Shown here: positions 37,362-49,020 of the stretch, one piece after another | Layout: each line of letters begins with the position of its first letter | Position numbering within the stretch: the first letter of the stretch is position 1 | The notes under the pieces: generated by a model | What the model saw: the letters and a program-made list of their open reading frames with translations, nothing else | What the model was told of the DNA's origin: nothing | Databases searched by the model: none | Assembly (NCBI GenBank): GCA_029261405.1 | Contig: JAJDBK010000011.1 | Coordinates: 62,001 to 126,000 of the forward strand | Source: Nitrospinaceae bacterium | GTDB taxonomy: Bacteria > Nitrospinota_A > UBA7883 > JAJDBK01 | Reading direction: 5' to 3' | DNA: 64,000 nucleotides | Position numbers and translations under genes: made by a program

Positions 37362-37741
37362 GTGGGTGGCTCGGCCACGGCGAATAACGCTGTCGCGCTT
37401 TCTGAACACGCCCTTGCGGTAGCTCTGGTTGTGGCTTAACCACCCTCGGGCATTATTACGGAAGGTGGAATAGAAATAAGTTGCAATTGAACTGTTCTAC
37501 TGTATTATAAAATATTGCTAAATGGGCCTTGACCAAGCCTCGACAGTCTGCCGGACCTGGATTGCCAGAATAACATAGCAGCCCAAGCCTTGCAGAGTGT
37601 TAGTTAAATACCTGCCAGATGTACCAACGTCTGACGGGAGCTTGAATAAAACTCATGGTCAGAGAACTTGCGGATTTCCGCAAAAAAAATAGGCGGCGGC
37701 GCTTTAACTGGAGCCGGAGCTTGAAAGCAGGACTTAACCAT
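37362..37741. other. non-coding stretch with one GTGG-N5-CCAC repeat
   Basis: About 380 bases between the acyltransferase and a lipoprotein gene. It starts with GTGGCTCGGCCAC (37366-37378), the palindromic repeat also found at 48687-48699, then GGCCACGGCGA shared with 6804-6814. An inverted CCACC/GGTGG pair lies near 37440-37470. The rest is AT-rich near 37480-37520 and may hold a promoter; I see no clear one. Confidence 0.45.
37366..37383 (+). repeat. single GTGG-N5-CCAC palindromic repeat unit
   Basis: GTGGCTCGGCCACGGCGA is a 13-base imperfect palindrome plus GGCGA. The 13 bases are identical to the unit at 48687-48699, which is followed by AGCGA. It lies just past the acyltransferase stop. 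Confidence 0.55.
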
Positions 37742-43465: not shown

Positions 43466-43487
43466 AGGAGCCTGTCGGACTTAGGGG
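43466..43487 (+). repeat. single copy of the MITE-type terminal repeat
   Basis: AGGAGCCTGTCGGACTTAGG and two more G match the terminal arms of the element at 48618-48859 with one substitution over the 17-base core. It abuts the end of pseG and has no partner nearby, so it may be a solo remnant. Confidence 0.6.
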
Positions 43488-44522
43488 TTATTTATCATAA
43501 TCGCCCATTGCCAGGGCTACTCGGCAAGCTCCGGCGCCATCAACAAGTTTCATCCCTTTATCGGAAAAATTGGCGAGAAGTTCACGATTTTCAGACAGAT
43601 CGCGAAGTGTGGCCGATAGATTGTTCATTGTAACCCGCTCTTCCGGTCCCGAATAGATTGCGTAACCACCGTTTGCCAAAGCTTTTGCTGGTATCTCCTG
43701 ATTTTTGGCGATGGTGATTATAAGTGAGGGAACACCGAGCAACGCTCTCTCCATAGTTGATACGCCGTAAGCTCCGATGGCAAGGTCCGCTTTCGTCGTT
43801 AATTCCGCCATGTCGGGGGGGGAGATGTGTAGATTGATCCACTCCCGCTTTTCTGTAAGTTCGTCGATCCAACTGGTCCCGGTGGCGGAGGGGCCTATGA
43901 CGAGGTCAGTTTCGATATCGCCTTTCCATACGGTTTCGATGGCGGTAAAGGTTTTGGCGATGACAGATGGGGCGGAGCCTCCACCGAAAGAGACAAGTAT
44001 ACGGCGTATATCTCCGATCCGGCTTTCGGCGGATTTCCGCGCATCGATAAACTCAGGGCGCAGGAGAGCGTACTGCGGTCCTAGAAGGGTCCTGTATCCT
44101 CCATACTTGGCCTCAACGCCGGGGAGGTAGTGGTAGTTTAAAAGCAGGTCGCAGTTCCGTTTGGCCAGGGCCAGATCGTCTACGGATAAAATACGTCCGC
44201 TACAAGGCCGAACCAGATCCTCCCATTCGGCGTTCGCCCCGGATATATCGATCACCAGCCAGTGAGCGCCTCCATCTCTATTAATTATGTCGGCTGTTTT
44301 CTCTGCGTCTTCTCTTGCCACGAACTTCTCACTACACCCCGTTATTGAAGAAACCGGGAACCCTCGTCCGGTAAGAAAGGGTATCAGGTCACCTTCGAGC
44401 TCCTTGCAGATGAAATGGACCTGCGCCCCGTTATTTTTCAATGCCGTAGCCAGAGCCAGCGAACGAGTCACATGCCCCGATCCGATGATATTGGAAGCGT
44501 CTGTCCTGATAAATGCTTTCAT
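43488..44522 (-). CDS. pseG: PseG-like UDP-sugar hydrolase
   Basis: 344 aa. The N-terminal IRTDASNIIGSGHVTRSLAL with His17 matches PseG, the hydrolase that removes UDP from UDP-2,4-diacetamido-trideoxy-altrose in pseudaminic acid synthesis. The MurG-like C-terminal half contains ILVSFGGGSAPSV and AIGAYGVSTMERALLGVPS. No pseB, pseC, pseF, pseH or pseI is visible here. The product is used for flagellin or capsule sugars. A related UDP-sugar hydrolase is possible. Confidence 0.88.
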   Translation of the reverse strand: MKAFIRTDASNIIGSGHVTRSLALATALKNNGAQVHFICKELEGDLIPFLTGRGFPVSSITGCSEKFVAREDAEKTADIINRDGGAHWLVIDISGANAEWEDLVRPCSGRILSVDDLALAKRNCDLLLNYHYLPGVEAKYGGYRTLLGPQYALLRPEFIDARKSAESRIGDIRRILVSFGGGSAPSVIAKTFTAIETVWKGDIETDLVIGPSATGTSWIDELTEKREWINLHISPPDMAELTTKADLAIGAYGVSTMERALLGVPSLIITIAKNQEIPAKALANGGYAIYSGPEERVTMNNLSATLRDLSENRELLANFSDKGMKLVDGAGACRVALAMGDYDK

Positions 44523-48481: not shown

Positions 48482-49020
48482 AAAAACTGGTTGCCGTCGG
48501 ATTGCCGACGCTACCGAACCTGATGTTTCGTTCCGTCTCTGCGCTGGTGGGTCTCTACGCCATGATGGGGCTTCTTCTTGTGGTGGCGGCGGAACAAATG
48601 GAAGTTCCGCTCGACCCAGGAGTCTGTCGGACTTGGGGGTTCGTTAGCGAGTAGTGCGACTACCCCGGGTGGCCCGGCCACAGCGAGTGGCTCGGCCACA
48701 GCGATAAGGTTTTGAGTCAGATTTATTGCGCTTTTGAGGTGTAATCGCCGTGGTCGCACCACTTCGCCGAAAAAGGGCGGAAAATCTGGCCGAAACCGGG
48801 CCATATCGCTGTGGTAGCGCCACTTTGTAGCAGAATCATCCTAAGTCCGACAGACTCCTAGTCCTTCTCGTAGGATTATTCGCTTCGTTCTTCCATTTCG
48901 TTCTGGGCCCGTGGTTCATGGATCTCTCCTTAAAATACCTGTATGGTGTGACATGGATGACCACAGACACGCTTCCGGCTTGAACATCTGGTCAAATTTG
49001 TAAGGAAAACAAATTCCGGG
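48482..49020. other. non-coding region with MITE-like element
   Basis: 540 bases without a convincing gene. The core (48618-48859) is a repeat element described separately. Left of it are about 130 bases of ordinary composition. Right of it, 48860-49020 leads to the glycosyltransferase stop; I see nothing more there. Confidence 0.5.
48618..48859. mobile_element. MITE-like element with 17-base terminal inverted repeats and REP-type palindromes
   Basis: AGGAGTCTGTCGGACTT (48618-48634) is exactly repeated inverted at 48843-48859. Inside lie five 13-base imperfect palindromes. Three follow each other at an exact 18-base step (48651, 48669, 48687): GTAGTGCGACTAC, GTGGCCCGGCCAC, GTGGCTCGGCCAC. Two more are at 48750-48762 (GTGGTCGCACCAC) and 48811-48823 (GTGGTAGCGCCAC). 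The last reads inverted as GTGGCGCTACCACAGCGATA, matching the GTGGCTCGGCCACAGCGATA of the left part. About 242 bases with no transposase, so a non-autonomous element is likely. Confidence 0.65.

Follow-up and report, generated by a model that had tools for sequence, protein, structure and literature searches.

The repeat at 48619-48858 of the window, by which we mean the whole 64,000-nucleotide stretch of DNA analysed here, is very probably a non-autonomous transposon of the MITE type that has ends of the IS1182 family and a hairpin of about 162 bp as its basic form, and that is present here in an old and enlarged version. The element is short (162 bp in the basic form, 240 bp here), carries terminal inverted repeats, lacks a transposase gene and occurs in dispersed copies, as befits a MITE, and the copy in the window is an old, enlarged derivative of the 162-bp element decorated with smaller palindromic units.

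The layout of this copy was read directly from the letters (Table 1). An earlier note on the same DNA had described perfect 17-base terminal inverted repeats, and these are indeed present, AGGAGTCTGTCGGACTT being found at 48618-48634 and its exact reverse complement at 48843-48859; over 20 bases the two arms remain 95% complementary. All five of the 13-base palindromes that were said to lie between the repeats can likewise be found, the exact 18-base step holds for palindromes 1-3, and palindromes 4 and 5 are part of minus-strand units, in agreement with the claimed inversion of interior units. The proposed GTGG-N5-CCAC type applies to four of the five, the first (48651) being of the form GTAG-N5-CTAC. 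A covariance model of the element, R1, scores the copy at 64.5 bits on the plus strand and 33.6 bits on the other strand. The sole open reading frame of at least 80 amino acids to overlap the copy (48511-48804, minus strand) runs across its left boundary, and a scan for promoters and terminators gave three terminator-like sites against 2.2 expected, none of them inside the element, and no promoter-like sites.

Table 1. Features of the element copy and of the related pieces in the window.
Feature	Positions	Strand	Basis
Left flank CCAG, one base off the CTAG target; its G also belongs to the start of the terminal repeat	48616-48619	.	
Left terminal inverted repeat, IS1182 type	48619-48637	+	
Left asymmetric internal-loop block of the conserved 162-bp chassis	48638-48650	+	alignments
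Site-1 insert, GTAG-type unit GTAGTGCGACTACCCCGG; palindrome GTAGTGCGACTAC at 48651-48663	48651-48668	+	
Site-1 insert, GTGG-N5-CCAC-AGCGA unit; palindrome GTGGCCCGGCCAC at 48669-48681	48669-48686	+	
Site-1 insert, second GTGG-N5-CCAC-AGCGA unit; palindrome GTGGCTCGGCCAC at 48687-48699	48687-48704	+	
Inner stem, left arm GGTTTTGAGTCAGATT	48708-48723	+	alignment, fold
Site-2 unit, replacing the apical hairpin seen in the basic form; palindrome GTGGTCGCACCAC at 48750-48762	48745-48762	-	
Inner stem, right arm AAAATCTGGCCGAAACC	48781-48797	+	alignment, fold
Site-3 unit in the right arm; palindrome GTGGTAGCGCCAC at 48811-48823	48806-48823	-	
Right asymmetric internal-loop block of the chassis	48824-48839	+	alignments
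Right terminal inverted repeat	48840-48858	-	
Right flank CTAG	48858-48861	.	
Truncated relic, left terminal repeat and first bases of the chassis	43466-43489	+	R1 15.5 bits, E 0.022
Solo palindromic unit with tail GGCGA, a few bases 3' of a TAA	37366-37383	+	

Two solo pieces named in the earlier note are real as well: the terminal repeat at 43466, which has one mismatch, is a truncated left end, and the palindrome at 37366 together with its tail differs by one mismatch from the 18-bp unit. A possible decayed terminal repeat (AGTCTGCCGGACCTGG) lies at 37543-37600, where the R1 match reaches only E 0.49.

The genome from which the window derives (3.27 Mb, 99.5% complete) holds many further copies. 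With the element as blast query it yields 79 pieces, and R1 finds 35 distinct places when the rows of both strands are merged, of which 10 measure exactly 162 bp, the other 25 being derivatives that are longer, shorter or cut. The 14-base terminal core AGTCTGTCGGACTT occurs in 46 exact copies and the exact unit GTGG-N5-CCAC-AGCGA in 73, against none for the reversed control of either, and the outcome that the earlier note took as fatal to its proposal, no further copies in the genome, is thus not what the search returned. Its description as a non-autonomous element plus fragments is borne out by the terminal repeats, the CTAG-type flanks, the dispersed copies, the truncated relics and the lack of a transposase gene in the element itself.

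Alignment of 21 copies from this genome reveals a single chassis with three insert positions. Site 1 lies in the left arm, where the basic form has AAAAGYYT or similar, site 2 is at the tip, where the basic form has a hairpin with TAGTGGACCTA, and site 3 lies in the right arm, 5' of TTTGT. Each of the three is either basic or unit-bearing, independently of the others: units are found at all three in the window copy, at sites 1 and 2 in L009, at sites 2 and 3 in L014, only at site 1 in L016, only at site 3 in L013, and at sites 1 and 3 in L012, which has three in tandem at site 3. Since the site-1 tail AGCGATA is complementary to the TATCGCT of site 3, the main stem should survive a paired insertion and gain side hairpins, and the fold would thereby be enlarged, not broken.

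The inner units behave as a separate, REP-like dispersed family. While 39 of the 73 exact units have a terminal repeat or model hit no more than 150 bp away, 34 lie away from any detected element, and since six of these read as cut elements (C14:22036, C29:98, C33:8697, C78:60658, C81:13922 and C81:13944), about 28 are truly outside elements; these remaining units are single, inverted, or in tandem at an 18- or 22-bp step. The exact unit is absent from the 23 other genomes of the phylum, and a search of the window's genome for a transposase of the units found none. The 18-bp unit has either entered the chassis at three fixed positions or multiplied there, and its spread is likeliest to have occurred by slippage within tandem arrays and by switching of the template from one palindrome to another. 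Solo units are often found inside a longer repeat, GGGCCA-GTGG..CCAC-AGCGATTAACGCTAACGCT or similar (L227, L228, L230, L231, L233, L246), which constitutes a further palindromic family of this genome, and one locus (L237, at G000:C46 near 43100) is a tandem array of at least six units of 22 bp (TCGCYGTGGTCGCACCACCATA).

Judged by their sequence, the ends of the element are of the IS1182 type and not of the REP/RAYT type. In one stretch (L184) exact terminal repeats enclose a reading frame of 455 amino acids with the DUF772, DDE_Tnp_1 and DDE_Tnp_1_6 domains, that is, an IS1182-type transposase, and in another (L148) a DUF772 frame begins beside one such end. A tblastn search of plasmid records with the L184 protein gave many matches annotated as IS1182, and of eight IS1182-like plasmid copies that were examined, one of them annotated as ISAzo2 family, six have both ends within four mismatches and two have one such end. 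Furthermore, an Extensimonas genome (G042) contains an intact 1.5-kb IS1182 with ends CAGCCTGTCGGACTT and CTAG on both sides, directly abutting a copy of the element, and a second genome (G087) has an IS1182 frame with one matching end within the stretch examined. In two IMG/VR stretches (L189, L191) an end lies beside a reading frame resembling the start of an IS1182; both are cut off and were left uncounted. The look for a transposase with matching ends that the earlier note had recommended is thereby answered in Extensimonas, whereas the window's own assembled genome holds five DUF772 remnants, none with these ends, and no IS1182 with matching ends, a partner in the same genome being expected but not indispensable. 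A search of seven element-rich genomes at E 1e-20 gave an IS1182 close to the query in only two of them. The element would presumably be mobilised in trans, its ends being recognised by an IS1182 transposase encoded at another place, which would insert it at CTAG and leave CTAG on both sides, perhaps through duplication.

The flanks agree with such a history of movement. In G087, 13 of the 14 copies examined are identical and all 14 are flanked by CTAG on both sides, each at a different site, which points to recent movement. One Extensimonas insertion is furthermore missing from the corresponding site of two relatives, whose intergenic flanks have diverged too far to show a duplication. CTAG is found on both sides of 32 of 64 copies in other genomes and of 7 of 29 in the window's genome, where most of the others have CCAG to the left or CTGG to the right; since CTAG is palindromic, a target duplication, which the earlier note had proposed to look for, and a target preference look alike in all these counts. 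The copies in the window's genome look older because their CTAG flanks have decayed, in keeping with the fact that no matching IS1182 was found, and for these two reasons the element seems to have stopped moving there. The left flank thus drifts from CTAG to CCAG and the right one to CTGG; when the next G of the element is included, this amounts to a change of CTAGG to CCAGG, the setting in which very-short-patch repair works at Dcm sites.

The family extends well beyond this genome. Scanning of species genomes with AGGAGYCTGTCGGACTTNGG gave at least 117 stretches, and among the matches listed (117 loci) the repeat forms a facing pair in 63, is cut by the sequence end in 19 and does neither in 35, while 53 of the 69 facing pairs listed at a spacing of 40-320 bp measure 161-163 bp. 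The 47 loci aligned from the matches listed are assigned to Pseudomonadota (39), Nitrospirota (3), Thermodesulfobacteriota (2), Myxococcota as labelled (2) and Bacteroidota (1), although many of these labels stem from metagenome bins and may be erroneous. R1 has matches at E 1e-10 in 28 of the 200 genomes sampled from the order of Extensimonas, and the Extensimonas genomes themselves give 86-88 blast matches each, a few of which are pieces of flank or second-strand rows. In the window's phylum only 3 of 24 genomes match R1 and full copies are confined to the window's own, a patchy pattern that suggests horizontal arrival. Four loci, L101, L115, L121 and the more diverged L182, have in common an additional stretch of about 50 bp, inserted in one and the same loop, and three Spirochaetes records (L155, L163, L173) have the same ends 214-302 bp apart around a different interior and probably represent a sister family.

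Compensatory change maintains the fold of the element. A first set for fold analysis comprised 29 of 58 elements, kept at below 85% identity (median pairwise identity 61%) and without L041, L118 and L143, which have a different interior or doubtful orientation; a second comprised 28 of 96 at below 80% identity, with L041 and L143 included. For the 29 elements RNAalifold predicts 49 pairs, 29 of which are changed on both sides. Double-changed cells number 244 as against 83 +/- 8 in shuffled alignments, and paired cells make up 93.2% as against 75.8%, the shuffles in both cases ignoring relatedness, and when the partners are slid by 1-3 columns no more than 90 double-changed cells are left. The fold is also strand-specific. 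With element orientation fixed by a sequence motif and not by energy, the plus strand gives the more stable RNA in 27 of the 28 elements of the second set, by 14 kcal/mol on average, and DNA parameters give the same outcome in 26 of 28, the forbidding of G-U pairs in 28 of 28. In pairs common to the folds of both strands G-U outnumbers A-C by 55 to 28 in the first set and 48 to 27 in the second, a skew that is only moderate and to that extent speaks against the reading; counted by sequence, it is 15 to 5 in both sets. We infer that selection acts on the fold of one strand. Identity in interior columns is 0.59 where unpaired and 0.52 where paired (permutation p 0.03), and this difference, being only slight, speaks against a strong constraint on the loops.

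The best reading of these observations is that the element is selfish and that its fold helps it to spread or to be tolerated. It is furthermore possible, if somewhat doubtful, that the fold of about 162 nt is a functional single-strand structure, either RNA or one DNA strand, which is needed for the spread of the element, so that the family would be a structured selfish nucleic acid crossing several phyla on borrowed IS1182 transposases and the side positions would be docking sites for a second repeat.

The main rival for the covariation is quasipalindrome correction, an established process for quasipalindromes by which one arm is copied onto the other during replication or repair, and which would produce a covarying fold free of any selection. 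The element, as a long imperfect hairpin, is a substrate of just this type, the tails of units on opposing arms are complementary, and unpaired columns are barely better conserved than paired ones. Correction should however erase asymmetric loops, and yet asymmetric blocks, among them TCGnAGCGA with GCAG opposite, have been kept across phyla; neither these nor the greater stability of one strand in nearly all diverged elements is readily explained by it, and we consider this account rather unlikely. A structured RNA or terminator of use to the host, spread by transposition and kept for the control of neighbouring genes, would agree with the very stable folds (z of -9.5 for the window copy and -13.7 for the basic form) and with the intergenic location and long predicted stem-loop described in the sections consulted on a published relative, MITEPye1 (PMC11578231). 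It is nevertheless improbable, since orientation relative to neighbouring frames, as given by rough ORF calls, is unbiased elsewhere (<E> 16, >E< 12, >E> 11 and <E< 6 of 45) and in the window's genome shows no convincing bias (4, 4, 5 and 9 of 22 in the same order), since presence in the phylum is so patchy, and since none of the copies tested attains the gathering score of any Rfam family, the only match at the element being at chance level. That the element is of the REP/BIME type, produced and mobilised by a RAYT (Y1) transposase in line with the earlier note's comparison, is highly improbable in spite of the dispersed, tandem and inverted 18-bp units and the one unit of GTAG type, since the ends match IS1182, the unit lacks a tag distinct from its palindrome, GTGG being the 5' arm of the palindrome itself, and the RAYT domain Y1_Tnp (PF01797), found in 5 of 14 controls, has no match in the 99.5%-complete genome; what stands of that comparison is the REP-like, dispersed nature of the inner units.

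As a selfish element with ends of the IS1182 type, the present family has a known relative in MITEPye1 of Paracoccus yeei, which the consulted sections describe as an intergenic element of 159 bp with 18-bp IS1182-like ends, 4-bp direct repeats and a long predicted stem-loop, and which its authors think is mobilised by IS1182 elements (PMC11578231). The two are alike by description in length class, type of ends and predicted stem-loop, but MITEPye1 has been described in one species, with copies that are 96-100% identical, and those sections mention neither a family across phyla nor covariation, strand bias or nesting of palindromes (PMC11578231). The IS1182-family insertion sequences of the ISAzo2 group likewise have the terminal repeat [GC]AGYCTGTCGGRCTT and CTAG flanks, but they are about 1.5 kb long, encode a DDE transposase and lack the 162-bp fold. 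The Chunjie MITE of Geobacter uraniireducens likewise comes in size variants with many partial copies but measures 178-235 bp, the comparison covering size and copies as described in a review (PMC10969869). REP/BIME elements also consist of short palindromic units that are single, tandem or inverted, and REP dimers inside longer palindromes have already been reported, according to the part of the source consulted (PMC3733652); unlike in REP/RAYT systems, no RAYT was detected here, GTGG is part of the stem, and the units occupy three fixed sites of an IS1182-type MITE. Searching papers for the sequence letters gave as sole match a Geobacter sulfurreducens primer, OmcE_fwd, which contains the 15-base core of the terminal repeat and may anneal at the repeats, as judged from the excerpt consulted (PMC11077965). 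In the literature searched, which covers few subscription journals, neither an IS1182-type MITE that spans phyla and has a covarying fold nor nesting at three sites is described. The breadth of the family, its conserved strand-specific fold and the nesting are hence new, whereas a single-species relative was known in MITEPye1.

The family is common in one sampled group, the order of Extensimonas, and can now be detected with the covariance model, and its decorated copies show how a palindromic repeat can come to be built into another. Bacterial MITEs are usually regarded as decayed insertion sequences. The near-constant length and the compensating, strand-specific fold found in several phyla suggest that the interior of this MITE matters, and if the functional reading is true, the element would be a selfish nucleic acid whose stems have diverged under a strong pairing constraint.
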